Position numbers and translations under genes: made by a program. DNA of 64,000 nucleotides from Acidobacteriota bacterium (GTDB lineage Bacteria; Acidobacteriota; Thermoanaerobaculia; Gp7-AA8): positions 62,001 to 126,000 of the forward strand of contig JAJPHC010000057.1 in assembly GCA_021325515.1 (NCBI GenBank). Reading direction: 5' to 3'. Each line of letters opens with the position of its first letter. Within the stretch, counting starts at the first letter, position 1. The notes beneath the pieces were generated by a model. That model made no database searches, was not told where the DNA came from, and was given only the letters and a program-made list of their open reading frames with translations. Of the stretch, positions 7,089 through 42,624 are shown one piece after another.

Positions 7089-8252
7089 ATGCACTACATG
7101 CTCCACGCGCTGAGCATGGCTTTTGCCATGTTCTGGGAAATCCTCTGGGCTCTCATCCTCGGCTTCGGCCTCTCCGCGATCGTCCAGGCAGTAGTCGGGA
7201 AAGAGCAGATGACGAAGCTCCTGCCCGACGAATCGCCGAAGACGCTCGCAATCGCCTGCGTTCTCGGTGCCGCATCGTCGTCATGCTCCTATGCCGCTGT
7301 TGCGCTCGCGCGCTCGCTCTTCCGCAAGGGTGCGAACTTCACAGCGGCGATCGGCTTCATGCTCGCATCGACGAATCTCGTCGCCGAGCTTGGGATCATC
7401 ATGGCCATTCTTCTCTGCTGGCAGTTCACGCTCGCCGAGTTCCTCGGCGGGCCGGTGATGGTCGCGATTCTCGCGCTGCTGTTTCGGCTCTTCCTGAAAC
7501 GACACATGGTCGAAGCCCGCGAGCAAGCCGACCGAGGCGTTGCCGGCAGGATGGAAGGTCACGCCGCGATGGACATGTCAGTGACGGAAGGCGGCACGAT
7601 CTGGCAGCGGATTGTTTCTCCGAAAGGCTTCACCGCGATCAGCCACTATTTCGCCATGGATTGGGCCGCGGTGTGGCTCGACATCGGCGGAGGGCTGCTG
7701 ATCGCGGGCGCGCTGGCCGCGTGGGTTCCGGCGACGTGGTGGAACCGTTTCTTTCTGACGAATCACCCGCAGCTTGCGAAGTGGTGGGGACCGATCGTTG
7801 GACCGATCGTCGCCGTGCTGTCGTTCGTCTGCTCGGTCGGGAACGTGCCGCTCGCCGCGGTACTGTGGAACGGCGGGAGCAGCTTCGGCGGTGTCATCGC
7901 CTTCATCTTCGCCGACTTGATCGTGCTGCCGGTGCTCAACATCTACCGCAAGTACTACGGTCTGAAGATGGCGTCGTTCCTCTTCGTCACGATGTTCGCT
8001 TCGATGTCCGCCGCCGCGCTCGCGATCGAGTTCCTGTTTCAGGCGCTCCATCTGATCCCACGCGAGCGCCACGCGCGAATCGTCGAAGCAGCGATCACGA
8101 TGAATTACACGAGCGTGTTGAACATCATCTTCCTTGCCGTCGCCGCGCTCCTGCTGTGGCGTTTCTTCAGGACCGGAGGGATGGAGATGCTGCGCACGAT
8201 GAACAAGATGCCGGAGGAGCCGCGGCATCGAGCGCACGCTCACGCGCACTGA
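7089..8252 (+). CDS. ArsP/DUF318-type metal permease
   Basis: A 387-residue polytopic membrane protein (start ATG 7089, or GTG 7086). It has the two-repeat architecture of the ArsP_1/SO_0444 permease family. The first repeat carries GAASSSCSYAAVALARS (around residue 60) and the second VLSFVCSVGNVPLAAVLW (around residue 240), matching the family's conserved Cys-containing loops in each half. A His-rich cytosolic tail (HRAHAHAH) ends the chain. Relatives export Zn/Cd or organoarsenicals. The metal neighbourhood suggests soft-metal or metalloid efflux, but the substrate is not determined. Confidence 0.87.
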   Translation: MHYMLHALSMAFAMFWEILWALILGFGLSAIVQAVVGKEQMTKLLPDESPKTLAIACVLGAASSSCSYAAVALARSLFRKGANFTAAIGFMLASTNLVAELGIIMAILLCWQFTLAEFLGGPVMVAILALLFRLFLKRHMVEAREQADRGVAGRMEGHAAMDMSVTEGGTIWQRIVSPKGFTAISHYFAMDWAAVWLDIGGGLLIAGALAAWVPATWWNRFFLTNHPQLAKWWGPIVGPIVAVLSFVCSVGNVPLAAVLWNGGSSFGGVIAFIFADLIVLPVLNIYRKYYGLKMASFLFVTMFASMSAAALAIEFLFQALHLIPRERHARIVEAAITMNYTSVLNIIFLAVAALLLWRFFRTGGMEMLRTMNKMPEEPRHRAHAHAH

Positions 8253-8255
8253 CGC

Positions 8256-8690
8256 ATGAAACGGTGGATCGCGTTTACGCTGCTGGTGCTCGCGATGAAC
8301 TTCGCGTGGGAGATGCTCCAGGCGAATTGGTTCTCGAGCATGCGCGGCCTGCCGATCCTCCGCGCCACGCTTCTCTGTCTCCGCGCATCGGCCGGCGATC
8401 TTCTGATCACGGCAGTCGCGTTCACGATCGTTGCGCTCGTCGCACGAAGTCCGACATGGCCCGTTGGACGCCGCATCTTCGTTCCGGCCACGATCTTTCT
8501 CATCGTTGCGATGACGATCGTGATCGCGTACGAACTGTTCGCACTTTCGACGGCACGCTGGAAGTACGACGCAGCGATGCCGAAACTGTTTGGGATCGGG
8601 CTTCTGCCGTTGATGCAGTGGATGGTGCTGCCGTTCGTCGACGTGTGGACGTTCCGTCTAGTTTGTATGAGTATTAGCGGGCAAACCTGA
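8256..8690 (+). CDS. Four-helix membrane protein of unknown function
   Basis: A 144-residue integral membrane protein starting 3 bp after the permease stop and so probably co-expressed with it. Four hydrophobic helices are visible (about residues 5-25, 45-65, 75-97, 112-135), with FAWEMLQANWF in the first loop. The last dozen residues (FRLVCMSISGQT) look less like a designed tail, and the stop lies within the junction sequence at 8683-8702 shared with the deleted copy at 50629, so the 3' end may have been remodelled. I do not recognise the family. Confidence 0.6.
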   Translation: MKRWIAFTLLVLAMNFAWEMLQANWFSSMRGLPILRATLLCLRASAGDLLITAVAFTIVALVARSPTWPVGRRIFVPATIFLIVAMTIVIAYELFALSTARWKYDAAMPKLFGIGLLPLMQWMVLPFVDVWTFRLVCMSISGQT

Positions 8691-25098: not shown

Positions 25099-25163
25099 CG
25101 CGCCGGTGAGCCGAGGCACGCCACGGAATGCGATCGGCTCGTATCTTGTCGTTGCATACGGCG

Positions 25164-25574
25164 ATGAACACAACCCACCACATCACCACGACGATATCGC
25201 AGCGATTGATCGCATGCGCTGGCGTGATCGTCCTGTTCGCGGTGTTTTTCGCTCTCCCGCTGTACGCGGCCGTCAATCTCTGCACGATGCCCTGCTGCCA
25301 TCACGACGGCTCGTCGGAGCAGCCGGCTGTCGGCGCCGGCATGTCTGGATGCGCGTCGGACTGCTCGATCAGTGCGGACGCAGCGACCGCTGCAGAGTCG
25401 ATTCGCTCGGTCGCGCCAGCCCGCAGAGGCTTGGAGCATGCCATCGCGGCGACGCAGGTCGTCGCGGCGATCACCACCGCAAGTGATGGCGTTCCCCCGG
25501 TGCGCGACGAGGCGCGACCACGTTCGAGCAGCGCCGCACCGCTTCACGTCCTGAACTCCCTCTTCCGCATCTGA
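25164..25574 (+). CDS. Small exported Cys-rich protein ahead of cus operon ('FRI' family)
   Basis: 136 residues from ATG 25164 (or 148 from ATG 25128). One signal/anchor helix (ACAGVIVLFAVFFALPLYA) runs into NLCTMPCCHHDG, a compact Cys-Cys-His-His metal site. The middle is Ala/Ser/Arg-rich with more Cys (SGCASDCSIS). The chain ends APLHVLNSLFRI at the stop. The N-terminal site and the C-terminus are both shared with 42220 and partly with 34956, while the middle is not conserved. Only 73 bases separate it from the cusC start. It might be a copper-sensing leader peptide or a periplasmic chaperone. Confidence 0.65.
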   Translation: MNTTHHITTTISQRLIACAGVIVLFAVFFALPLYAAVNLCTMPCCHHDGSSEQPAVGAGMSGCASDCSISADAATAAESIRSVAPARRGLEHAIAATQVVAAITTASDGVPPVRDEARPRSSSAAPLHVLNSLFRI

Positions 25575-25647
25575 TTCGGCGGTTTTCTCCCTCTCGCCCA
25601 CCCAGGCGCACGCCCAATGTGCGTCTGTGCTCGAAGGAGACCGCAAC

Positions 25648-27036
25648 GTGTCGATCCGTACCCGATTCGCCGCCGCATTTCTCGTCCTCGTGACGTTCGC
25701 GGCGGACGCGCAAACTACAGGACAAACCGCCGCCGTTCGCGCGGCTCTGCAGGACCCGCAGCTCGAGGCACTCGTCGCCGAGGCGCTACAGCAGGCGCCG
25801 GAGATGGCAGCCGCGCAGGCGAATGTCGAAGCGGCGCAGCGACGCATCATCCCGGCACGGACGCTCGCCGACCCGTTCGTATCCACCACCTATCAGAACG
25901 ACGGCCGCACCCCGTCCCTCGGCAGCGCCGAGGGGAGTTTCCTCGGGCTGATGGCGAGTCAGGCCATTCCGTGGCCGGGCAAGCTGCGGCTCTCTGGTGA
26001 CGTGGCCGCGAGTGAAGCGCGCGAGATCGAGCGCGGAACGCTCGGGCGCACCGGGCTCACGCTCGAAGCGCGTGTCCGCAACGCCTGGTACGACGTCGTT
26101 CTCGCCCGCGCCATCGATCGCATCATCGAGGATCGCCGCACCGCGGCGACGCAGATCGAGGCATCGGTGCGCGAACGGTACGCGGCCGGGCTCGCCGTGC
26201 AGCAGGACGTGCTCCGCGCGCAGGTCGAGCTGGCGCGTATCGACGAATTGAAGGCGACACAGGCGGCGACGATCACGAGCCGTCTCGCAGAGCTGAACAG
26301 ACTCGTGAGCGAAGCGCAGGATCGTGCGATCGCAACGGCCGATCGTCTGCCGGACGACCACACCGTGCCATCGCTCGGTGAGCTGATCGCTTCGGCGTCG
26401 GCGCGCAGCCCTGAGCTCGCAGCCTCGCGGCAGGGCATCGAGACCGGCCGCATTCGCGTCGATCTGGCGAAGAAGAACTTCCTCCCCGACTTCACCGTGA
26501 ACGCCGGATCGATGTACCGCGGCAATTTTGCGATGGGACCGATGTGGCAGGTCGGGGTCGGCGTCTCGATCCCGGCGTGGATCAATCGCCGGCAGCAGAA
26601 CCAGCTCGCCGAAGCGCAGGCGATCGTTCGCGGGCGCACGGCGGAAAGCGACGCGGTTGCGCGCGAGCTGGAACTGCGGACCCGCGAGCGGGTGGCGCAG
26701 CTCGATGCTGCGCTGCGGATCGCATCGCTTTATCGCGACAAGGTTCTTCCGCTCGATGACGTCTCGCTCGAATCGGCGCTGGCCAGCTATCAGGCCGGCA
26801 AAGTGCCGTTCATCACCGTGCTCGACGCGCTGAACACGCTCTACAGCGACCGCGCGATCTACGAAGGAAGGCTCGCCGAAAGCGCGAAGTGGCGCGTGGC
26901 CATCGATGAAGCGAGCCTGCAGCCGACCGCCATGGCGGGCACGCCATCGATGGGCGGTTCGGCGATGAGCGGTGGCACATCTGCACCGTCGGCAAAGACA
27001 ACCAGCAACTCTTCCAGCATGAATTCGATGAGGTGA
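25648..27036 (+). CDS. cusC: CusC/TolC-family outer-membrane factor
   Basis: 462 residues starting at GTG 25648, chosen because AAGGAG lies 8 bases upstream and it leaves a clean signal (FAAAFLVLVTFAADAQ). The chain has two OEP repeats: LVAEALQQAPEMAAAQANVEAAQRR and SPELAASRQGIETGRIRVDLAKK, each starting a long coiled-coil hairpin. The tail is Met/Ser-rich (MGGSAMSGG). It is the outer channel for the CusB-CusA pump encoded immediately downstream, with the cusB ribosome site overlapping its end. Confidence 0.9.
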   Translation: MSIRTRFAAAFLVLVTFAADAQTTGQTAAVRAALQDPQLEALVAEALQQAPEMAAAQANVEAAQRRIIPARTLADPFVSTTYQNDGRTPSLGSAEGSFLGLMASQAIPWPGKLRLSGDVAASEAREIERGTLGRTGLTLEARVRNAWYDVVLARAIDRIIEDRRTAATQIEASVRERYAAGLAVQQDVLRAQVELARIDELKATQAATITSRLAELNRLVSEAQDRAIATADRLPDDHTVPSLGELIASASARSPELAASRQGIETGRIRVDLAKKNFLPDFTVNAGSMYRGNFAMGPMWQVGVGVSIPAWINRRQQNQLAEAQAIVRGRTAESDAVARELELRTRERVAQLDAALRIASLYRDKVLPLDDVSLESALASYQAGKVPFITVLDALNTLYSDRAIYEGRLAESAKWRVAIDEASLQPTAMAGTPSMGGSAMSGGTSAPSAKTTSNSSSMNSMR

Positions 27037-27041
27037 TCACG

Positions 27042-28418
27042 ATGAAAACAAAACTCCCCTGGATTCTCACGCTCCTCCTCGCGATCGCACTCGTCGTCGT
27101 CGTGTTTGCACGGCCCGGCAACAAGAGCTCTGCGTCCGCGGCTTCGGGCGAGAAGAAAGTCCTGTACTGGGTCGACGCAATGAATCCGACGCACAAGTTC
27201 GATAAGCCCGGCAAGGCACCCGATGGAATGGATCTCGTTCCGGTCTACGCCGACGAGCCGGCCCAACCGCTAACGGCGGCGAAGAAAAAAGTTCTCTATT
27301 GGGTCGATCCTATGCATCCAGCCTATAAGTCGGACAAGCCCGGCAAGGCGCCCGATTGCGGCATGGAGCTCGTGCCCGTGTACGAAGACGGAGGCGCCGC
27401 GACGGCGTCGACCGTGAGCGGCTACGCGAACGTGAAACTCACCTCCGACCGGCAGCAACTGATCGGTGTGCAGACGGGCATGACGGAAATGCGATCCCTC
27501 GGACGTTCGGTGCGCACCGTGGGGCGCGTCGCCGTTGATGAAACACGCCTCTACAAGATCACGACGAAGTTCGACGGGTACATCGAGAAGCTGTATGTGA
27601 ATGTTACGGGACAGCAGATTCGAAGAGGACAGCCCCTTTTCTCCGTCTACAGTCCCGATCTCCTCTCAACGCAGCAGGAATACCTTCTCGCGCTGCGCGC
27701 GGCGAAGCAATCGCCCTCGCTGTTGGCAGGAGCGCGCCAGCGACTCCTCTTATGGGACATCACACCCGCGGAAATCCGCGAGCTGGAGCGCACCGGCACG
27801 GCGCGCAAGTCGGTCACGATCTATTCGCCGACGAACGGGTTCGTGCTGAACAAGATTGCGGTGGAGGGCGCGCGAGTCACGGCTGGCGAGCCGCTCTTCG
27901 AGATCGCGAATCTCGATCATGTCTGGATTCAGGCCGACGTATACGAGTCCGAACTGCAGTTCATCCGCCTCGGCGCACCAGCGACGACGACGCTTTCGTA
28001 TCTCCCAGGCCGCACGTGGAAGGGGCGCGTGACGTTCATCGCTCCGACCGTCGATCCGATGACACGTACGGTGAAAGTGCGCAGCGAGTTCGAGAACGCG
28101 GACGGTGCGCTCAAGCCCGACATGTTCGGCGACGTCGTGATCGAGCAGCCGGCGCGTGAGGTGGTCGTCGTTCCCGACTCCGCGGTCCTGCAGACCGGCA
28201 CGCGCTCGGTCGTCTTCGTCGTCAAAAGTGACGGGACGTTCGAACCGCGCGAAGTCTCGGTCGGAACGAAGACCGAACAGGTCTACGAAGTGCGCAGCGG
28301 TCTCGTAGCGGGCGAAAAGGTCGTCACACAGGCGAACTTCCTCATCGATTCCGAGTCGCGCTTGAAAGCAGCGCTTGCGCAGATGAACGCACCGGGAGGC
28401 CAGGAGCACGGCCAGTAG
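27042..28418 (+). CDS. cusB: CusB-type membrane fusion protein with two HMBD domains
   Basis: 458 residues from ATG 27042, with GAGGTG in the upstream gene's last codons. An N-terminal membrane anchor (LLLAIALVVVVFA) is followed by two heavy-metal-binding domains. The first (YWVDAMNPTHKFDKPGKAPDGMD) has lost the Cys; the second (YWVDPMHPAYKSDKPG, then DCGMELVPVY) keeps it. The rest is a periplasmic adaptor: barrel-sandwich (GYIEKLYVNVTGQQIRRGQPLF), helical hairpin with QQEYLLALRAAK, and beta-barrel/MP domains (VPDSAVLQTG). It links CusA to CusC and delivers Cu(I)/Ag(I). Confidence 0.92.
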   Translation: MKTKLPWILTLLLAIALVVVVFARPGNKSSASAASGEKKVLYWVDAMNPTHKFDKPGKAPDGMDLVPVYADEPAQPLTAAKKKVLYWVDPMHPAYKSDKPGKAPDCGMELVPVYEDGGAATASTVSGYANVKLTSDRQQLIGVQTGMTEMRSLGRSVRTVGRVAVDETRLYKITTKFDGYIEKLYVNVTGQQIRRGQPLFSVYSPDLLSTQQEYLLALRAAKQSPSLLAGARQRLLLWDITPAEIRELERTGTARKSVTIYSPTNGFVLNKIAVEGARVTAGEPLFEIANLDHVWIQADVYESELQFIRLGAPATTTLSYLPGRTWKGRVTFIAPTVDPMTRTVKVRSEFENADGALKPDMFGDVVIEQPAREVVVVPDSAVLQTGTRSVVFVVKSDGTFEPREVSVGTKTEQVYEVRSGLVAGEKVVTQANFLIDSESRLKAALAQMNAPGGQEHGQ

Positions 28419-28444: not shown

Positions 28445-31400
28445 ATGATTGAAAAACTCATTCGCATCTGCGCAACGAACAAGTTCATGACCCTCACGAT
28501 CATGGCGGCGCTCGTCTTTGCCGGCCTCTGGTCGATGAACCGCATCGCAGTCGATGCGCTGCCTGACCTTTCGGATACGCAGGTCATCATCTATTCGAAG
28601 TGGGACCGGAGCCCCGACATTATCGAGGATCAGGTTACTTACCCGATCGTCACGTCCCTGCTCGGCGCCCCGAAGGTGAAGAGCATCCGCGGGTTTTCTG
28701 ACTTCGGCTATTCGTACGTGTACGTGATCTTCGAAGAGGGAACCGATCTCTATTGGGCGCGCAGCCGCGTCCTCGAGTATCTGTCGAAGACCCAGTCGTC
28801 CCTGCCTCAGGGAGTGAAGACGGAGCTTGGCCCCGACGCGACCGGCGTCGGGTGGGTTTTCCAGTACGCGCTCGTCGACAAGAGCGGAAAACACTCGCTG
28901 GCGGACCTTCGCTCGTTGCAGGACTGGACGATCCGGTATCAGTTGCAGTCCGTGCCAGGCGTCGCGGAAGTTGCGTCGCTCGGCGGCTTCGTTCGCCAGT
29001 ACCAGATCACCGTCGACCCAAACAAGCTCGCGGCCTACCGCATCCCAATCATGGAGGTGATGGAAGCGGTGCGCGGATCGAACAACGAAGTCGGCGCGCG
29101 GCTCGTCGAATGGAGCGGCGCGGAGTACATGGTCCGCGCGCGTGGCTACGTCAAGAACATCGCCGATCTCGAACAGATCGTAGTGAAGACCGACGAGCGC
29201 GGAACGCCCGTGCTCCTGCGCGACGTGGCGAACATCCAGCTCGGGCCGGAGCTTCGGCGCGGCGTCGCGGAGCTGGATGGCCAGGGTGAGACCGCGGCCG
29301 GTGTCGTCATCATGCGGCAACGCGAAAACGCGCTGGAAGTCATCAATCGCGTAAAGGCGCGTCTGGCCGAGATCGAAAAGACACTTCCTGAGGGCGTGAA
29401 GATCGTCACGACCTACGACCGCTCGGAGCTGATCGAGCGCTCCATTCACACGCTCAAGCATGAGCTGCTGCTGGAGATGATCATCGTCTCCCTGATCATC
29501 CTCATTTTCCTCTGGCACATCCCGAGCGCGGTCATCCCGATCTTCACGCTTCCGGCCGCGATCATCATCTCGTTCATCCCGATGAAGATCCTCGGAATCA
29601 ACGCCAACATCATGTCTCTCGGCGGCATCGCCATCGCCATAGGTGCGCTCGTCGATGCTGCGGTGGTCGTTGTCGAAAACGCGCACAAGAAACTCGAGGT
29701 CTGGCAAGCGGAGGGAGGTAAGGGCGACTACAAGGAAGTCCTCATCGGAGCCATCCAGGAAGTCGGCCGTCCGAGCTTCTTCTCGCTCATGGTCATCGCC
29801 CTCTCCTTCATGCCGATCTTCGCACTCGAAGCGCAGGAGGGCCGGCTCTTCAAGCCGCTCGCGTTCACGAAGAACTTCGCCATGGCCATCGCGGCGATCC
29901 TCGCGGTGACGCTGGATCCCGCTATCCGGCTTCTCTTCACGCGCATGAAGGAGTATCGATTTCAGCGCCGGGCAGGAGAACTGCGAGAGGACGGGACGGT
30001 CGTCACGGAGCGCAAGGGTCCGCTGGCTTCGATTGGACGGATCGTCGTCCGTGGTGCGGAGAAGGTTACTAACGCCGTGCTGGTCGGGAAGATGTACCCC
30101 GAGGAGAAGCACCCGATCTCGAAAATCCTCTTCAAGCTCTACACGCGGCCGGCGAAGTTCGTCCTCAAACATCCGCGGCTGGTGATCGGCACCGCGCTGC
30201 TCATCGTGCTGTTCACAATCCCGGTCTACAAGAAGCTCGGTCACGAGTTCATGCCGCCCTTGAACGAGGGATCGATCCTCTACATGCCGACGACGCTCCC
30301 CGGCATCTCGGTGGCGCAGGCCGAAGCGCTTTTGCAGCGGCAGGATCAATTGCTGAAGGGCTTCCCCGAGGTTGAGCGCGTCTTCGGCAAAGCGGGACGT
30401 GCGGAGACATCCACGGATCCGGCGCCGTTCGCGATGATGGAGACGGTCGTCGTGCTCAAACCGACGTCGGAGTGGCGCACGCGGCCGCGGTGGTATTCGA
30501 ACTGGCCGGGCTTCATCAAGCCGTTATTTCGTCCGCTCTGGCCGGAGTCGATCTCCTGGGACGAGCTGGTCAACGAGATGAACACGAAGCTCACGCTCCC
30601 GGGTCAAACGAACGCCTGGACGATGCCGATCAAGAACCGCATCGACATGCTCACGACCGGCATTCGCACCCCGGTGGGGATCAAGATCTTCGGTGCGGAC
30701 CTCAAGGAGATCGAGAAGATCGGTCAACGCCTCGAAGGCATCCTGCAGAGAATCCCCGGAACCCGTAGTGTCTACGGCGAGCGAGTCGCGGGCGGGTACT
30801 TCGTCGACTTCGATCTCAACCGCGCGGCCATCGCGCGCTATGGCCTGCGCATCGGCGACGTGCAGAACGTCATCATGACCGCTATCGGTGGGGAGAACGT
30901 CTCGACGACTGTCGAAGGGCGCGAGCGCTACCCGATCAACATTCGCTACCCGCGCGAGATGCGCGACGACGTCGACAAGCTGGCCCGCACGCTGGTGACG
31001 ATTCCGAGTGCCTCCGGCGCGATGGGCGGCGGTGCGCAGATTCCACTCGGTCAGCTCGCCACGATCAAGCTTGTCGAAGGCCCGTCGATGATCCGCGACG
31101 AGGACGGCCGGCTGTCCGGCTATGTGTACATCGACGTCGATACCGAGAAGCGCGACATCGGCGGCTACGTCGAAGAGGCGAAGAAGGCCGTTGACGGCGA
31201 GATGAAGCTCAAGCCCGGTTACCTGCTTGCGTGGAGTGGGCAGTACGAATCGATGACGCGCGTGAAGGAGAAGATGAAAGTCGTTCTCCCGCTCACGCTC
31301 TTCGTTGTCTTCATGCTCATCTACCTGAACACGAAGTCCTTCCCGAAGACGGCCATCGTGTTGCTCGCCGTCCCGTTCTCCGCGGTCGGCGCGGTCTGGC

Positions 31401-32275
31401 TGCTCTACGCGCTCGGCTACAACATGTCGATCGGTGTGTGGGTGGGGTTGATCGCCTTGCTTGGTCTCGACGCCGAGACCGGCATCTTCATGCTGTTGTA
31501 TCTCGATCTCGCGCACGACGAACGCGTCGCCGCCGGAACGCTGAACACGCGTGAGGATCTGAACGAGGCCATCATGCATGGCGCCGTGCAGCGCGTCCGT
31601 CCGAAAGTGATGACTGTCGCTTGTGCGTTCTTCGGCCTCGTGCCGATCATGTGGTCGACTGGGGCGGGAGCGGACGTTATGAAGCGGATCGCCGCCCCGA
31701 TGATCGGCGGCCTCTTCACGTCGTTCCTCATGGAACTGCTCGTCTACCCAGCCATCTATCTTCTCTGGCGCGAACGCGATCTGCGCCGCCCTGGGCACGT
31801 CGATGAGGAACACCCGAAGCCTCACTGGTGGCAGCGGCCGGCTCTCGTCAGCAGCGTGAGCGGGGTTGTGGTCGCACTCGGAATTGCGAGTTACATGTTC
31901 TTCCCGCGCCCGGAGGTGAGGCCGCTCTTCCCACGATACGAGTCGGTGCGGCAATCGCTTCTGAGCGAATCGCTCGAAGGCGTGAAATCGAACGCCACCC
32001 TACTGGCGAACGATGCACGCGCGTCGAATCAGCCGAAGATCGCGACCGACGCTGACGCGCTGGCGAAGAGCAACGACATCGAGGCTGCGCGCCGCGCATT
32101 CGCCACGCTCTCCGACGCGATGATCGCCTACCGCGGTGCGGCGGACGAGAAACCCAAACCACAGGTCGTTTACTGCTCGATGGCGAAGCACTCGTGGCTC
32201 CAGCCAAAGGGCGACATCAGCAATCCGTATCTCGATCCAGCAATGCGCACATGTGGAGAAGTCAAACAACAGTAG
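28445..32275 (+). CDS. cusA: CusA-type RND pump with C-terminal DUF3347 domain
   Basis: 1276 residues. Residues 1-1110 are a complete heavy-metal RND pump: porter domains, GGIAIAIGALVDAAVVVVENAH in helix 4 with the relay acidic residue, and GLDAETGIFMLLY. Three Met positions expected for Cu(I)/Ag(I) relay are in LYMPTTLPGIS, PFAMMETV and NRIDML. After a last membrane helix (about 1125-1145) an extra periplasmic domain begins at PRYESVRQSLLSE and ends with YCSMAKHSWLQPKG, NPYLDP and MRTCGEVK, the DUF3347 signature. The fusion lengthens the protein by about 130 residues over typical CusA. It probably adds a metal-binding Cys pair at the pump's exit side. Confidence 0.92.
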   Translation: MIEKLIRICATNKFMTLTIMAALVFAGLWSMNRIAVDALPDLSDTQVIIYSKWDRSPDIIEDQVTYPIVTSLLGAPKVKSIRGFSDFGYSYVYVIFEEGTDLYWARSRVLEYLSKTQSSLPQGVKTELGPDATGVGWVFQYALVDKSGKHSLADLRSLQDWTIRYQLQSVPGVAEVASLGGFVRQYQITVDPNKLAAYRIPIMEVMEAVRGSNNEVGARLVEWSGAEYMVRARGYVKNIADLEQIVVKTDERGTPVLLRDVANIQLGPELRRGVAELDGQGETAAGVVIMRQRENALEVINRVKARLAEIEKTLPEGVKIVTTYDRSELIERSIHTLKHELLLEMIIVSLIILIFLWHIPSAVIPIFTLPAAIIISFIPMKILGINANIMSLGGIAIAIGALVDAAVVVVENAHKKLEVWQAEGGKGDYKEVLIGAIQEVGRPSFFSLMVIALSFMPIFALEAQEGRLFKPLAFTKNFAMAIAAILAVTLDPAIRLLFTRMKEYRFQRRAGELREDGTVVTERKGPLASIGRIVVRGAEKVTNAVLVGKMYPEEKHPISKILFKLYTRPAKFVLKHPRLVIGTALLIVLFTIPVYKKLGHEFMPPLNEGSILYMPTTLPGISVAQAEALLQRQDQLLKGFPEVERVFGKAGRAETSTDPAPFAMMETVVVLKPTSEWRTRPRWYSNWPGFIKPLFRPLWPESISWDELVNEMNTKLTLPGQTNAWTMPIKNRIDMLTTGIRTPVGIKIFGADLKEIEKIGQRLEGILQRIPGTRSVYGERVAGGYFVDFDLNRAAIARYGLRIGDVQNVIMTAIGGENVSTTVEGRERYPINIRYPREMRDDVDKLARTLVTIPSASGAMGGGAQIPLGQLATIKLVEGPSMIRDEDGRLSGYVYIDVDTEKRDIGGYVEEAKKAVDGEMKLKPGYLLAWSGQYESMTRVKEKMKVVLPLTLFVVFMLIYLNTKSFPKTAIVLLAVPFSAVGAVWLLYALGYNMSIGVWVGLIALLGLDAETGIFMLLYLDLAHDERVAAGTLNTREDLNEAIMHGAVQRVRPKVMTVACAFFGLVPIMWSTGAGADVMKRIAAPMIGGLFTSFLMELLVYPAIYLLWRERDLRRPGHVDEEHPKPHWWQRPALVSSVSGVVVALGIASYMFFPRPEVRPLFPRYESVRQSLLSESLEGVKSNATLLANDARASNQPKIATDADALAKSNDIEAARRAFATLSDAMIAYRGAADEKPKPQVVYCSMAKHSWLQPKGDISNPYLDPAMRTCGEVKQQ

Positions 32276-32301: not shown

Positions 32302-32766
32302 ATGAAACCGTTCACCCAAATGCTCGTCGCAGTTTCCGCTCTGCTCTTCGCGTTCTCGGCTGGCGCAGGTCAGAGCACGCTCTTTGGAAAATACGAGAAC
32401 GTGCGCCAGGCGCTATTGAAGGATTCACTCACTGACATACAGCGTACGGCAAAGGATCTTGCGGAGGCGGCACGGACAGAGAAGCAGCCTTCGATCGCCG
32501 AGCGCGCCGAGGCGTTGAGCGGCGTAGCCGGCCTCAAAGCGGCGCGCGACTCATTCGCCATGCTGTCGGAGCAGATGATTCGGTTCCGCGACGGCGCGTC
32601 TGGCGATCGCCCGATCGTCATCTACTGTCCAATGCACAAGGCCTCGTGGCTGCAGCCGAAAGGCGCCGTGACCAATCCGTATGCCGACGACGCGTCGATG
32701 CGCTCTTGTGGTCAGGTCCGTAATGACGCAGCGACTGCACCTCCTGCGCATCAACATCACCACTAA
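32302..32766 (+). CDS. Secreted DUF3347 protein
   Basis: 154 residues with signal peptide (VSALLFAFSAGAGQ) and AAGGAG upstream. The domain opens GKYENVRQALLKDSL and ends with VIYCPMHKASWLQPKG, NPYADD and MRSCGQV. It is close in pattern to the C-terminal domain of the CusA encoded 26 bp upstream, so one probably arose from the other. Two Cys, one Met and the HQHHHH tail could bind copper. DUF3347 is known mainly from periplasmic copper systems; its biochemistry is not established. Confidence 0.82.
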   Translation: MKPFTQMLVAVSALLFAFSAGAGQSTLFGKYENVRQALLKDSLTDIQRTAKDLAEAARTEKQPSIAERAEALSGVAGLKAARDSFAMLSEQMIRFRDGASGDRPIVIYCPMHKASWLQPKGAVTNPYADDASMRSCGQVRNDAATAPPAHQHHH

Positions 32767-32805: not shown

Positions 32806-33357
32806 ATGTTCCGCCGGGTACCGAATGAAGATCATGACTGGCTCTATGCGGTAGGTGCAATCGCGGCTATCTTCATGTTTTGGACGATCCCGCTGTCTCT
32901 GTCCCGCGTGGAGATGTCCGGGGCGCCGCAACCGCTGACGCAGGAGGCGCCACAACCCCGGTCATTCACGGCACTCGGCGGGACACTTCTCTTCCGCGAT
33001 CCTCTGGCCGGCGCACAAGCGCTCATCGGTTACTACCACGCGATCGAGCTTACGCCTGTGCAGGAAGCGATCAAGAAGGAGGCCCTCGGCGCGATCCCTG
33101 CGGCCTGCTGCAACGGATCGACTGCCTATACCTGCTGCTGTCCGTGCAATCTCTCGAAAACAATCTGGGGATTGAGCCATTACGCGATTGCGAAGCAAGG
33201 CGCCGACGCCAAACAGGTGCGCGCCGCCGTCGATGCCTGGCTCGGGTACGTCAATCCGGACGGCTATTCCGGCAACGCCTGTTATCGCGGCGCTTGTGAC
33301 GCCAATGCCTCTCGCAATGGCTGCGGCGGGATGCACGAAGAAAAACTCAGTGTCTGA
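32806..33357 (+). CDS. Membrane-anchored Cys-rich protein, CCCxCN/GCGGM family (copy 1)
   Basis: 183 residues with an N-terminal membrane helix (VGAIAAIFMFWTIPLSL). The soluble part opens YYHAIELTPVQEAIKKEALG and leads to AACC, then TCCCPCNLSKTIWGLSHY. After a helix it has YVNPDGYSGNACYRGACDA and NGCGGM. About 11 Cys in under 100 residues suggest a multi-Cu(I) or Fe-S/Zn site. It is paralogous to the products at 33366 and 34319. Ribosome site AAGGAG lies before the ATG. I do not recognise a named family, so the copper-store idea rests on neighbours. Confidence 0.7.
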   Translation: MFRRVPNEDHDWLYAVGAIAAIFMFWTIPLSLSRVEMSGAPQPLTQEAPQPRSFTALGGTLLFRDPLAGAQALIGYYHAIELTPVQEAIKKEALGAIPAACCNGSTAYTCCCPCNLSKTIWGLSHYAIAKQGADAKQVRAAVDAWLGYVNPDGYSGNACYRGACDANASRNGCGGMHEEKLSV

Positions 33358-33365
33358 GGAGAATC

Positions 33366-33800
33366 ATGAAACACGTCATAGCAGCCATCGTCGTACTGAC
33401 ATTGCCGCTGGGCAGCTCGGCAGCAACGCTCAAATTCGAGCCGGTCGAGACGCAAACCCGCAAATATATCGAGTATTACAAGATGATCCACCTCACTGCC
33501 GCGCAGGAGAAGATCAAGAGCGACGCGCTCTCGTCACTTCACGCCGTTTGCTGTAAGGACTTCTCGGCGTTGACCTGCTGCTGCCCGTGCAATTTCTCCA
33601 AAGCACTATGGGGCATGGCGAACTACTTGATCGCGAAAAAGGGCTACAACGCCGCGCAGCTACAGGAAGCGGCGAAGGAGTGGATCGCTTACGTGAATCC
33701 CGACGGTTTCAGTGGCGACGTCTGCCAGACCGGCGGCTGCAATCGCCCGTTCGCCCAGAACGGATGCGGCGGCATGGATGACAACGCCATCCGCTTTTGA
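33366..33800 (+). CDS. Secreted Cys-rich protein, CCCxCN/GCGGM family (copy 2)
   Basis: 144 residues, exported through a cleavable signal (IAAIVVLTLPLGSSAA) rather than an anchor. It shares YYKMIHLTAAQEKIKSDAL, VCCKDFSALTCCCPCNFSKALWG, INPDG-like VNPDGFSGDVC, TGGCNRP and NGCGGM with the other two copies. The conserved order (acidic helix, CC, CCCxC, Trp-Gly, helix, NPDGxxGxxCxxGxC, GCGGM) defines the family. It begins 8 bp after copy 1, preceded by GAGGAG, so the two are co-translated. Likely a soluble periplasmic partner. Confidence 0.7.
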   Translation: MKHVIAAIVVLTLPLGSSAATLKFEPVETQTRKYIEYYKMIHLTAAQEKIKSDALSSLHAVCCKDFSALTCCCPCNFSKALWGMANYLIAKKGYNAAQLQEAAKEWIAYVNPDGFSGDVCQTGGCNRPFAQNGCGGMDDNAIRF

Positions 33801-33815
33801 GTCGGAGATACGAAC

Positions 33816-34310
33816 ATGAATCGTAAATTGGCATTCGCGCTCCTCGTTTTGCTGATGCTGCCGCTGGCGGCCGCCGAAAATCCCGCCAAATGTCCGGCGT
33901 GCAGCTTCAGTGCTGTCCAGCAGCCTTATGACGCGGTTCGAATTGCGTTGACGGACGATCACCTCTCCATTGTAAGAACCGAGGGGTCGAAGCTGCGCGC
34001 GGCGGCACAAGCGGAAGCGGTATGGGCCAGAACCGCGACGGGACGCGGGCCGGAGCTCGTGATTCCCTGGACGAACGTCGCGGTGGCAGCGGCGAAGATC
34101 GAGAAGGCGGCTACGATCACCGACGCCCGCAAAGCCTTCGGCGAAGCGTCGGAAGGGATTCGCAGCGCGATGACGATCGCCGGCCGGGACGATCTCCTCG
34201 TCGCCTATTGTCCAATGGTGAAACTGCGCTGGATTCAGCCGAGGGGCGAGCTGCGCAATCCCTATGGATCGCGGATGCCGAACTGCGGACAGATCGTGAA
34301 AGCTCAATGA
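33816..34310 (+). CDS. Secreted DUF3347-like protein (third copy of domain)
   Basis: 164 residues with a signal peptide ending LPLAAAENP. A CPACSF motif occurs at the mature N-terminus, which the other copies lack. The domain runs from QPYDAVRIALTDDHL to VAYCPMVKLRWIQPRGE, NPYGSR and MPNCGQIV. It is interleaved between Cys-rich copies 2 and 3, each pair nearly touching, so the DUF3347 and CCCxCN proteins look like functional partners. Its stop overlaps a possible start codon, but the next gene's better start is 34319. Confidence 0.8.
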   Translation: MNRKLAFALLVLLMLPLAAAENPAKCPACSFSAVQQPYDAVRIALTDDHLSIVRTEGSKLRAAAQAEAVWARTATGRGPELVIPWTNVAVAAAKIEKAATITDARKAFGEASEGIRSAMTIAGRDDLLVAYCPMVKLRWIQPRGELRNPYGSRMPNCGQIVKAQ

Positions 34311-34318
34311 GGTGGAGC

Positions 34319-34888
34319 ATGCGCAGGCAGCAGAAGAAACTGAAGCCGGCCGGAGTACTGGCAGCCGTGATCGTGTCGATCGTTGGCGTCGTCGCGTTCA
34401 TCGTGGCAGCAACGGTTGGTTCGCGCGCATATGTCACGCATCATGTGCGCGCGAGTGCGAAGGCGGCGCGGATCGCCGCCGGTCCCCGCGCGAATGTGGC
34501 GCTCCTCGGAGGGAAACTCGTCTTCTCCGACGTCGCCGCACAATCGCGCGAATTCATCCGTTACTACTCGTCCATCCAATTGACTCCCCAGCAGGAAGCG
34601 ATCAAGTATGAAGTGCTCGCCGCGATGCCCGCCGCCTGCTGCAAGAATTCAAATGCATACACATGCTGCTGTAAGTGCAATCTGTCAAAGACTGTCTGGG
34701 GCCTGAGCAACCATGTCCTGTCCCACTATGCGGCGACGGCCGATGAACTGCGACAGGTGATCCAGGCCTGGCGCGATTACACCAATCCCAGCGGCCATAC
34801 CGGTGATTCCTGCTATGTGGGCCGCTGCAATGAGGCGCCACATCAGGATGGGTGCGGCGGCATGCTCGAGTCGGAGCTCATCATCTGA
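34319..34888 (+). CDS. Membrane-anchored Cys-rich protein, CCCxCN/GCGGM family (copy 3)
   Basis: 189 residues from ATG 34319, with GAGGTGG spaced 6 bases upstream. One N-terminal membrane helix (AAVIVSIVGVVAFIVAATV) anchors a periplasmic domain. That domain has YYSSIQLTPQQEAIKYEVLA, AACCKNSNAYTCCCKCNLSKTVWG, YTNPSGHTGDSCYVGRC and DGCGGM. The first Pro of the CCCPC motif is Lys here (CCCKC). Together with copies 1 and 2 it gives two anchored forms and one secreted form in a 2.1-kb stretch. Last gene of this run before the next 'FRI' family protein. Confidence 0.7.
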   Translation: MRRQQKKLKPAGVLAAVIVSIVGVVAFIVAATVGSRAYVTHHVRASAKAARIAAGPRANVALLGGKLVFSDVAAQSREFIRYYSSIQLTPQQEAIKYEVLAAMPAACCKNSNAYTCCCKCNLSKTVWGLSNHVLSHYAATADELRQVIQAWRDYTNPSGHTGDSCYVGRCNEAPHQDGCGGMLESELII

Positions 34889-34955: not shown

Positions 34956-35366
34956 ATGAACAGCATGACTAGTAGAATCAGCCGCGAGCCGATAAACGAG
35001 AGCCGGAGGCCTCATCTCGCCGCAATCACGGCGCCGATTTCGCTGCTGGTTCTGGCGCTGGTCATGCCGCTCTGCCCGGCGGCCGCCGCATGCATGATGC
35101 CTTGCTGCGACCATAGCGTGCCGGCAGCAGATCATGCCGCAATGCCGCCGGGCGGCTGCCATTCAACAGAAGGCTGTTCGCTCGCCTCTCCTCAGGCAAG
35201 CGAGACGCTCTACATCGTCGCCGGCTCTCCCGCCACCACGCCGCCTGTCGCGCCTCACGCTCTGGTTGATAGCGCCAGCGCCGTGACCGCGAGCTCGGTC
35301 GTACAGCCCTTCGCGCATCGTGCGTCACGACATCTCTACGTCGTTAACGACGTCTTCCTCATTTAG
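34956..35366 (+). CDS. Small exported Cys-rich protein ('FRI' family), ahead of ATC-hydrolase-like gene
   Basis: 136 residues with GAGGGAGACGC upstream of ATG. A hydrophobic helix (PISLLVLALVMPLCPAAAA) runs into CMMPCCDHS, then GGCHSTEGC. The middle is variable and the chain ends RHLYVVNDVFLI at the stop. It follows Cys-rich copy 3 and precedes, by 45 bp, the ATC-hydrolase-like gene. The position and layout match 25164 and 42220, although the C-terminus deviates (FLI instead of FRI). Function is unknown; leader or metal chaperone are both possible. Confidence 0.6.
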   Translation: MNSMTSRISREPINESRRPHLAAITAPISLLVLALVMPLCPAAAACMMPCCDHSVPAADHAAMPPGGCHSTEGCSLASPQASETLYIVAGSPATTPPVAPHALVDSASAVTASSVVQPFAHRASRHLYVVNDVFLI

Positions 35367-37561: not shown

Positions 37562-37618
37562 CAAAGCTCGAAACGGCGCCTTCAATCGCTTCTTAAACGA
37601 ACATCAAGGAGAACATTG

Positions 37619-38122
37619 ATGACACGAAAGCTCGTATGGATCTCTCTTACAACCCTGCTCCTCGCGCTTGGCACGAGCGCCCTCGCCTGCGGCACGACCA
37701 GCCGAACGCGACATGTGATGCATGAAGCTGAGGCAGACCCCGTTCTTCAGGCCTATGAGGACGCCCGGCTGGCGCTGATCGAAAATTCCGTCGCCGGTGT
37801 ACGAGCAGCGGCGAGGGCAATCGTGATGGCAGCGCACGAGGCTGACCTGCACACCATTGCCGTGCGGGCCGCGGTTCTTGAGGAAGCAAACGACCTCGCC
37901 GCCGCACGTCAGGCCTTCAGCGCGTTGTCCGATGAGGTCATCCAGTACCACGCGACGCGCGGCGATGACGGACTTGTGGCCGCGTATTGCGCAATGGAGC
38001 AGAAGTCCTGGCTGCAGCCGGTTGGAACGATCACCAATCCATACGTAGGCAAGGACATGCGCAATTGCGGCATGTTCGCGGCGGACGAATCGTCCTCCAC
38101 TCATCACGCACATCACCACTGA
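37619..38122 (+). CDS. Secreted DUF3347-like protein (fourth copy of domain)
   Basis: 167 residues from ATG 37619, with AAGGAG upstream and a signal ending in ALACG (possible lipobox). The domain runs from LQAYEDARLALIENSV to VAAYCAMEQKSWLQPVG, NPYVGK and MRNCGMF, closing with HHAHHH. The four-domain set shares YCxM, W[LI]QPxG, NPY and CG. In this copy Pro of YCPM is Ala. It is 18 bp ahead of the 22-aa microprotein. Confidence 0.8.
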   Translation: MTRKLVWISLTTLLLALGTSALACGTTSRTRHVMHEAEADPVLQAYEDARLALIENSVAGVRAAARAIVMAAHEADLHTIAVRAAVLEEANDLAAARQAFSALSDEVIQYHATRGDDGLVAAYCAMEQKSWLQPVGTITNPYVGKDMRNCGMFAADESSSTHHAHHH

Positions 38123-39396: not shown

Positions 39397-40080
39397 ATGT
39401 TGCCGGAAGAAGAGCGAACGATCGCCTTCGTCGACCTGTCGGGATTCACGGCCCTGACTGAAGCGCATGGCGACGAGACCGCAACGGCTGTGGCGCTTCG
39501 TTTCTACGAAATCGTCCGGTCGCTGCTTCGCGATGGCACGACACTGGTCAAGACCATCGGCGACGCCGTGATGCTAGTTGCCGTTGACCCCGAGACCGCG
39601 ATCAGCCTCATTCTCGAATTGCAGGCTCTGACCGATTCCACTCCCGATTTTCCGATGATCAGAGCGGGTCTGCATGTCGGACCGGCCAGAGAAGTGGAGG
39701 GCGACTACTTCGGTGCCTCCGTGAATCTCGCGGCCCGCGTCGCCGCGCACGCCAGTGCCGGTCAGGTTCTCTGCACCGCGGCCGTTGCCACCCGGATCGC
39801 GGAGTGTGGGCTGTGCACCGTCGTCGAGCTCGGTCCCGTCCTCTTTCGCAACGTGCATGATCGCGTGGTGATCTACGAAGTGCGCGGTAAGCATGTCACC
39901 ACTCCGGCGCACATCGATCCGGTTTGCCGCATGCACGTTACGACCGATGCGGCCATTGCCCGAATCAGGAGCGAAAGCGGCGAGATCTTCTTCTGTTCGC
40001 TCCGGTGTCTTCGCACGTTCGTTCACGAACGACTATCCGACGATAACACTCCTGGCACACACACGGAGCGGACCTCGTGA
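39397..40080 (+). CDS. Nucleotide cyclase domain fused to YHS metal-binding domain
   Basis: 227 residues. Residues 5-165 are a class III adenylate/guanylate cyclase domain: TIAFVDLSGFTALTEAHGDE, VKTIGDAVMLV, AGLHVGPAREVEGDYFGASVNLAARVA. Metal-binding Asp residues are in FVDLSG and IGDAVM. After a linker, residues 170-210 are a YHS domain (HIDPVCRMHVTTDAA, then FFCSLRCLRTFV) as seen in heavy-metal ATPases and copper proteins. The pairing suggests metal-linked cyclic nucleotide signalling or, if catalytically weak, a scaffold. It overlaps the hydrolase gene by 4 bp. Confidence 0.8.
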   Translation: MLPEEERTIAFVDLSGFTALTEAHGDETATAVALRFYEIVRSLLRDGTTLVKTIGDAVMLVAVDPETAISLILELQALTDSTPDFPMIRAGLHVGPAREVEGDYFGASVNLAARVAAHASAGQVLCTAAVATRIAECGLCTVVELGPVLFRNVHDRVVIYEVRGKHVTTPAHIDPVCRMHVTTDAAIARIRSESGEIFFCSLRCLRTFVHERLSDDNTPGTHTERTS

Positions 40081-42219: not shown

Positions 42220-42624
42220 ATGATTGACCATCCACGCAGATCGTCCGTGCGAAGCCTCTGCAGCGCTGCAACGGCACTGATCTTCGTTGCGGCCGCGTTC
42301 GTGCTGCCGCTCTGGGCCGGAACGGGAGCTTGTACGATGCCAGGCGGCTGCGCGAAGGCATGCTGCCACCACTCCATGTCGCTTCCTCTATCGGTCACCG
42401 GCACTCCCTGCCGCACTCTCGAGCCGACCACTGTCAGTGATGACATCGAGGAGGCGGGATCGCTGCTCGCGGCAACCGCTCTTACCCAGGACACGCCTCC
42501 AGAGTTACCCGTCCACGCGCGGCCGACTGACCAATTGTCAGTCGCCTTCATGCCGCTACTCCAACGGGCGCTGAATCGCGCCGATCGCCCTCTCCACCTC
42601 GTCAACTCCGTGTTCCGGATCTGA
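42220..42624 (+). CDS. Small exported Cys-rich protein ahead of outer-membrane protein ('FRI' family)
   Basis: 134 residues. A hydrophobic helix (SAATALIFVAAAFVLPLWAG) runs into ACTMPGGCAKACCHHSM, a Cys-rich patch of the same type as CTMPCCHH in 25164. The variable middle is acidic or neutral, and the chain ends RPLHLVNSVFRI at the stop. Stop and next start are separated by 57 bases. The closest pair in the set is this one and 25164 (LHxxNSxFRI). Signals at both ends with a free middle favour a leader-like role, but a small chaperone is equally possible. Confidence 0.65.
   Translation: MIDHPRRSSVRSLCSAATALIFVAAAFVLPLWAGTGACTMPGGCAKACCHHSMSLPLSVTGTPCRTLEPTTVSDDIEEAGSLLAATALTQDTPPELPVHARPTDQLSVAFMPLLQRALNRADRPLHLVNSVFRI

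Follow-up and report, generated by a model that had tools for sequence, protein, structure and literature searches.

A locus in an Acidobacteriota bacterium bears on the route by which Cu(I) may reach a CusCBA efflux pump that has no CusF encoded beside it: behind the cusA gene lie three paralogous genes for cysteine-rich exported proteins, denoted here X1, X2 and X3. The window, that is, the whole stretch of 64,000 nucleotides that was analysed (G000:C13:62001-126000), belongs to an assembly of 5.38 Mb. The questions addressed below are to which family these proteins belong, how far their link to copper efflux extends and what they might do next to the pump.

The gene run behind cusA

The run starts with cusC (25627-27036), which encodes a CusC-like outer-membrane efflux protein (Pfam OEP, 1.6e-33), and continues with cusB (27033-28418), the gene for a CusB-like adaptor (HlyD_D23, 2.8e-81; HMBD, 3.4e-20) with two HMBD heavy-metal-binding motifs; this protein matches the NCBIfam CusB model PRK09783 at 4.9e-75, which is under the cut-off of that model, and no CusF domain was detected in it with the Pfam and NCBIfam profiles. 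The pump gene, cusA (28445-32275), encodes an HME-RND transporter of the Cu(I)/Ag(I) type (TIGR00914, 1136.6 bits) that carries the methionine triad in the motifs LYMP, DPAPFAMME and RIDMLTTG; the methionines of LYMP, DPAP..M and RIDML.TG correspond to the E. coli CusA residues M573, M623 and M672. The window CusA has an additional C-terminal hydrophobic helix followed by a fused DUF3347/LIC13259-like Cys/Met domain (residues 1160-1271 match NF047615, 6.2e-10). Given this helix, the fused domain would sit in the periplasm, and it resembles a metal-binding module of that compartment. Such a fusion is found in at least two other genomes (L004, 2-3703; L015, 3095-6949).

Behind cusA, the genes follow one another as D, X1, X2, D, X3, where D stands for a gene encoding a DUF3347-like exported protein. 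The product of the first of these genes (32302-32766) contains the motif YCPM...WLQ...NPY...MRSCG and a His-rich C-terminus, and that of the second (33816-34310) an N-terminal CPAC motif. The initial annotation had described three cysteine-rich paralogs alternating with DUF3347 genes behind cusA; the genes are indeed interleaved but do not strictly alternate, and the DUF3347 identity is weak, with 24.0 bits for the first protein against the PF11827 cut-off of 25.5 (NF047615, 2.4e-10) and, for the second, no DUF3347 match but only a match to the NCBIfam LIC13259/LIC11441 model below its cut-off (NF047615, 2.7e-11). The three paralogs themselves are real open reading frames. X1 (32806-33357) and X3 (34319-34888; its start is ambiguous, at either 34308 or 34319) begin with a hydrophobic anchor, and X2 (33366-33800) with a Sec-type signal peptide, so that the earlier reading of two anchored proteins and one secreted protein stands as judged from the N-termini.

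From cusC to X3, all genes are on the plus strand and are separated by -4 to 39 nt, the pattern expected of a single operon. The last gene of the run (34956-35366, plus strand), recognized by sequence, encodes a small exported Cys/His protein with the motif CMMPCCDH and no Pfam or NCBIfam match; a 67-nt gap separates it from X3, and its membership in the operon is uncertain. Small exported proteins of this CxMPCCxH type are encoded at two further positions in the window (25128-25571 and 42220-42621); the three are weakly alike (29% identity) and none has a Pfam match. The gene at 25128-25571 lies 55 nt ahead of cusC, and a comparable Cys-rich gene (130-612) precedes cusC in L132.

The surrounding copper island includes genes for a CsoR-type metal repressor, a zf_CopZ protein, an HMA protein, a multicopper oxidase and a second OEP protein, with more RND genes immediately upstream. 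Behind X3, at a distance of 2.7 kb (37616-38122), lies the gene for a third DUF3347/LIC13259-like protein that stands alone and has a C-terminus rich in His. Close to the copper operon, there is also a gene (39397-40077) for an adenylate/guanylate cyclase catalytic domain with a weak C-terminal match to the metal-binding YHS domain, and a similar cyclase gene is present near the nine-Cys genes of L015 (11002-11643). For defence systems, PADLOC gave no match of note.

An unnamed nine-cysteine family

The three paralogs, which are the only copies detected by a search of the whole genome, show about 41-46% mutual identity (45% and 43% to X1 in the MAFFT alignment; 43-46% in the whole-genome search), with 45 invariant columns in the three-way alignment. 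All motifs quoted in the initial annotation are present in the three products, but the cysteine content given there, 10-11 per ~100 residues, was too high: each domain contains nine, namely a CC pair, a CCCxC cluster and three single cysteines (CC-x7-CCCxC-x44-C-x4-C-x8-C). Across the family, the nine cysteines are invariant in 52 of the 52 rows of alignment A2, an invariance that is partly built in because the first scan for homologs used the patterns A[YL]TCCC[PK]C and [ND]GCGGM, the later profile search being independent of these patterns; columns of W, N, G and M are invariant as well, and 45 of the 52 domains contain exactly nine cysteines. Chance is excluded by the retention of all nine in all 52 homologs from several phyla. 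At L134, the member that adjoins cusCBA (8032-8505, minus strand) lacks exactly the three consecutive cysteines (APCCDDNGLPCN), making it a natural variant with the central cluster deleted; thus, all nine are not strictly needed at this locus.

When 84,980 species genomes were scanned with sequence patterns, 41 loci were confirmed, and the profile searches identified the family in 19 of 297 genomes sampled across the phylum. Among genomes of the class to which the window belongs, it is present in 53 of 148, and for the window's taxonomic family the figure is 3 of 18. The homologs come mainly from Acidobacteriota but also from Binatota, Dadabacteria, a deltaproteobacterial MAG, Nitrospinota and Elusimicrobia; a search of PLSDB detected no plasmid copy. 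Judged by eye, the N-termini are of the export type in all lineages: Sec-like, anchor, lipobox-like or, in Bryobacterales, TAT-like with an RRxF motif. The family tree places X1, X2 and X3 in different subfamilies, and each of the three has orthologs at the cus loci of L004, L005 or L015; these subfamilies are old and have been retained behind cusA in related bacteria. In L015, a decayed X1-like C-terminal remnant (CEAGCEGGFSQNGCGGMVEEELAV) is located at about 7700-7800, between a DUF3347-like gene and the X3 ortholog. The sole homolog with an internal TGA codon, a weak one in L063, is a frame-broken remnant and provides no evidence of selenocysteine.

The initial annotation could not place the family, and our searches bear this out: none of the 52 members had a meaningful match among the Pfam and NCBIfam models, no clear match to a known family with another role emerged from the profile searches, and no sequence relative was found in the PDB. 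Structure prediction, which had been proposed along with these searches, gave a confident AlphaFold2 model of X2 (pLDDT 95.1, pTM 0.90) that is all-alpha, with four helices (7-20, 25-35, 56-72 and 76-90), six cysteines in the 42-55 loop and the remaining three in the tail at 100-114. Comparison with solved structures using Foldseek and VIA-align produced a best E of 1.6 and Z of 2.2, the only candidates being the spider-silk NT domain, legumain and similar folds at Z about 2, which we rejected; a viral structure library contained no match to the model either. Weak or absent structural matches are no proof of a new fold. The family is unnamed, and a literature search returned nothing relevant on DUF3347 in connection with copper or on the motif strings of the family.

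The profiles of CusF (PF11604, at E<=1), DUF411 (PF04214), DUF326 and PF13798 matched 0 of the 52 members, and PF13798 was not detected in the window's own genome either. CusF and CopG are periplasmic copper handlers linked to cusCBA (PMC7558416). CusF is similar to the proteins described here in being a small exported protein encoded with cusCBA, with a hand-off of Cu(I) to CusB proposed for it, but it is a small, OB-like beta-barrel that binds metal via His, Met and Trp (PMC7558416), whereas the nine-Cys model is all-alpha. CopG, whose link to cusCBA extends to copA, is likewise periplasmic and holds a tetranuclear copper cluster through a CxCC motif (PMC7558416); its thioredoxin-like fold and CxCC contrast with an all-alpha model, CC-x7-CCCxC and the absence of CxCC. 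The Csp proteins, a Cys-based, helical copper storage system with TAT export of some members (PMC12510493, PMC7558416), are comparable in cysteine richness, helical structure and the TAT-like starts of some nine-Cys proteins. However, Csp1 and Csp3 carry about 13-20 cysteines along the helices, lining the core of a four-helix bundle; in the X2 model, likewise predicted to have four helices, the nine lie in a loop and the tail, and Csp was not among the matches listed by Foldseek. At most, then, the nine-Cys family works like CusF, CopG or Csp; judging by the profile comparisons and, for CusF and CopG, by the fold as well, it is a member of none.

Among named families, a possible distant kinship was suggested for PCYCGC/CYCXC (PF13798) alone. 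These proteins are exported as well, with a cysteine cluster between helices 2 and 3 and two helices after it, and the helix order of the PCYCGC and X2 models is identical. In the hhalign comparison of the two profiles (probability 14.6%), the score of 25.3 slightly exceeded the best of 60 column shuffles (23.9) but is not significant, being below the usual thresholds. Furthermore, the P-C-[YF]-C-x-C, GH...C, H and CxxC motifs of PCYCGC are absent from the nine-Cys family, which has, in addition, the tail motifs G-x-C and GCGGM; identity with PCYCGC/CYCXC was therefore rejected on account of the sub-threshold score and the differing motifs. CcmH (PF03918), the N-terminal domain of which weakly matched the PCYCGC model in the fold search, was rejected as well, with a probability of 3.3% in the direct hhalign comparison to the nine-Cys family (CcmH profile of five sequences). 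In PF13798 proteins of L068 and L069, the codon for the first Cys of CxxC is an in-frame TGA, consistent with the reported CYCXC selenoproteins (PMC13188914).

Copper linkage and solitary copies across genomes

A link to copper efflux, suggested originally for the window, holds well beyond it. The nine-Cys gene is located near cusA or cusCBA in 12 genomes, among which several deep branches of the family tree are represented (the window, L004/L005, which are one MAG, L015, L016, L023, L026, L027, L062/L085, L129, L132, L133 and L134) and directly follows cusA in L027, L129, L133 and L134. In L023, the neighbours include a CopA-type multicopper oxidase, CopB and a copper ATPase; copper-type P-type ATPases are encoded nearby in L038 and L134, a COX2-like protein in L188 and a fragment with an HMBD motif in L031. 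Given about 1.3 HME-RND genes above the cut-off per genome in the phylum, the probability of finding one in a 19-kb stretch is about 0.006, and such genes were found near 6 of the 41 unselected loci, which corresponds to 2e-7, a value uncorrected for relatedness, neighbouring loci not being phylogenetically independent. Copper-linked loci were defined partly by similarity to the window's own genes. On the family tree, copper linkage undergoes six changes, at least three of which are forced by well-supported branches, so the linkage is not one inherited cluster.

The full Cu(I)/Ag(I) methionine triad is present in all 10 complete linked CusA proteins, compared to 1 of 20 HME-RND pumps sampled from the phylum (Fisher 4e-7); under a looser criterion of two methionines, the numbers are 10 of 10 and 4 of 20. 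Of the 10 cus-linked genomes, six lack CusF, and the remaining four encode it on contigs other than that of the cus locus. A search of these 10 genomes for DUF411 gave no match, and neither did its control. The copper link of the nine-Cys family is real and recurs beyond the window.

For some two thirds of the loci that were read, the stretch covered contains no copper gene. The Bryobacterales copies are solitary, with an MFS transporter and sulfatases as neighbours; this transporter was considered as a CcoA-type copper importer and rejected, given that it contains neither MxxxM nor HxxxM and most closely resembles aromatic-acid symporters. In two lineages, FeoB and a DtxR/FeoA-type regulator are encoded beside the gene, and the copies of genus g10, likewise solitary, have a TonB receptor gene and a CHAT gene as neighbours. 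One such locus (L080, 5346-10215) is possibly a metal uptake locus; there, the nine-Cys gene is flanked by a gene for a CHAT-domain protein and by one for a TonB-dependent receptor whose N-terminus is rich in His. In several deep lineages, a predicted DUF2231 membrane protein is encoded adjacent or close to the nine-Cys gene (L026, 8411-9517; L035, 6241-7386; L062, 179-1285), and it occurs at a greater distance in L016 and L027. Considering that most homologs are solitary and have no copper genes around them, a wider thiol or metal role is possible and copper may not be the whole story. Probably, the family began long ago as a gene present in one copy, with some general function outside the cytoplasm, and was repeatedly recruited to copper operons and, in the window's genome, triplicated.

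Candidate roles beside the pump

We favour the reading, to which we assign a probability of about 0.6, that X1, X2 and X3 are exported multi-Cys carriers or buffers of Cu(I), partly membrane-anchored, that serve the Cu(I)/Ag(I)-type CusCBA. The three proteins would be made together with CusCBA and act beside the pump, where the CC...CCCxC hairpin between helices 2 and 3, along with the three tail cysteines, would hold Cu(I) on the periplasmic side, possibly as several ions in a thiolate cluster. The buffered Cu(I) would then be handed to CusB and CusA and to the neighbouring DUF3347-like Cys/Met modules, as by CusF or CopG elsewhere, and since two copies appear to be anchored in the inner membrane while the third would move freely in the periplasm, a relay from membrane to soluble forms can be envisaged. 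Metal binding, its stoichiometry, the hand-off and the relay are the components of this reading that we infer, and the nine cysteines could equally form four disulfides and leave one free thiol.

An alternative is a disulfide-stabilized structural or docking protein with neither metal nor redox function, which might, for instance, serve the pump as an accessory subunit. Disulfide bonds are common in extracytoplasmic Cys-rich domains, two of the copies are anchored and the X2 model is compact; however, an odd number of invariant cysteines, six of them within 14 residues, and the vicinal CC and CCC are a poor fit to simple disulfides, which makes this alternative improbable. The solitary copies in most genomes, together with FeoB and the DtxR/FeoA-type regulator beside two copies and the TonB receptor beside those of genus g10, would be compatible with another metal or cofactor (zinc, iron, an Fe-S cluster or silver) or with general metal homeostasis, combined with several recruitments to copper operons. 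Such a role appears quite unlikely given that the adjacent complete pump is always of the Cu(I)/Ag(I) type and never of the CzcA type (10 of 10 vs 1 of 20), and that no iron or zinc genes recur over the tree as the copper genes do.

We also consider it unlikely, despite several points of agreement, that these are periplasmic thiol-disulfide proteins in which a CC/CCCxC redox centre at a helix N-terminus would maintain the reduced state of thiols that copper damages in the pump and the DUF3347-like proteins, or would convert Cu(II) to Cu(I). A CxxC-like cluster does cap helix 3 in the X2 model, a redoxin gene adjoins the L027 copy, and LIC13259, a relative of the DUF3347-like neighbours, performs thiol-disulfide exchange (PMC13344006); moreover, the similar-looking PCYCGC family, with its shared helix order and weak match to CcmH, includes Sec-containing members, and its profile score surpassed all 60 column shuffles, although the best shuffle came close. 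Nevertheless, the hhalign comparisons were negative for CcmH (3.3%) and under the usual threshold for PCYCGC (14.6%), and nine clustered cysteines are many for a simple redox pair.

The reading of X1, X2 and X3 as Cu(I) carriers can be extended, tentatively, to a specific form that we regard as possible but doubtful. The family would then represent a new all-alpha class of exported proteins in which the CC-x7-CCCxC hairpin and the three-Cys tail assemble a polynuclear Cu(I)-thiolate cluster; it would act as the Cus metallochaperone where the operon lacks CusF, with anchored and soluble paralogs relaying the metal to CusA and its fused DUF3347-like domain.

For the route of Cu(I) to a CusCBA pump with no CusF beside it, the nine-Cys family provides a concrete, small and expressible candidate; in other phyla as well as in many uncultured Acidobacteriota, it is encoded next to a CusA of the Cu(I) type. 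If its members bind several Cu(I) ions, they would add a new scaffold on which copper clusters form in biology, and their gene would serve as a marker when copper resistance is annotated in groups where it currently has no family model.
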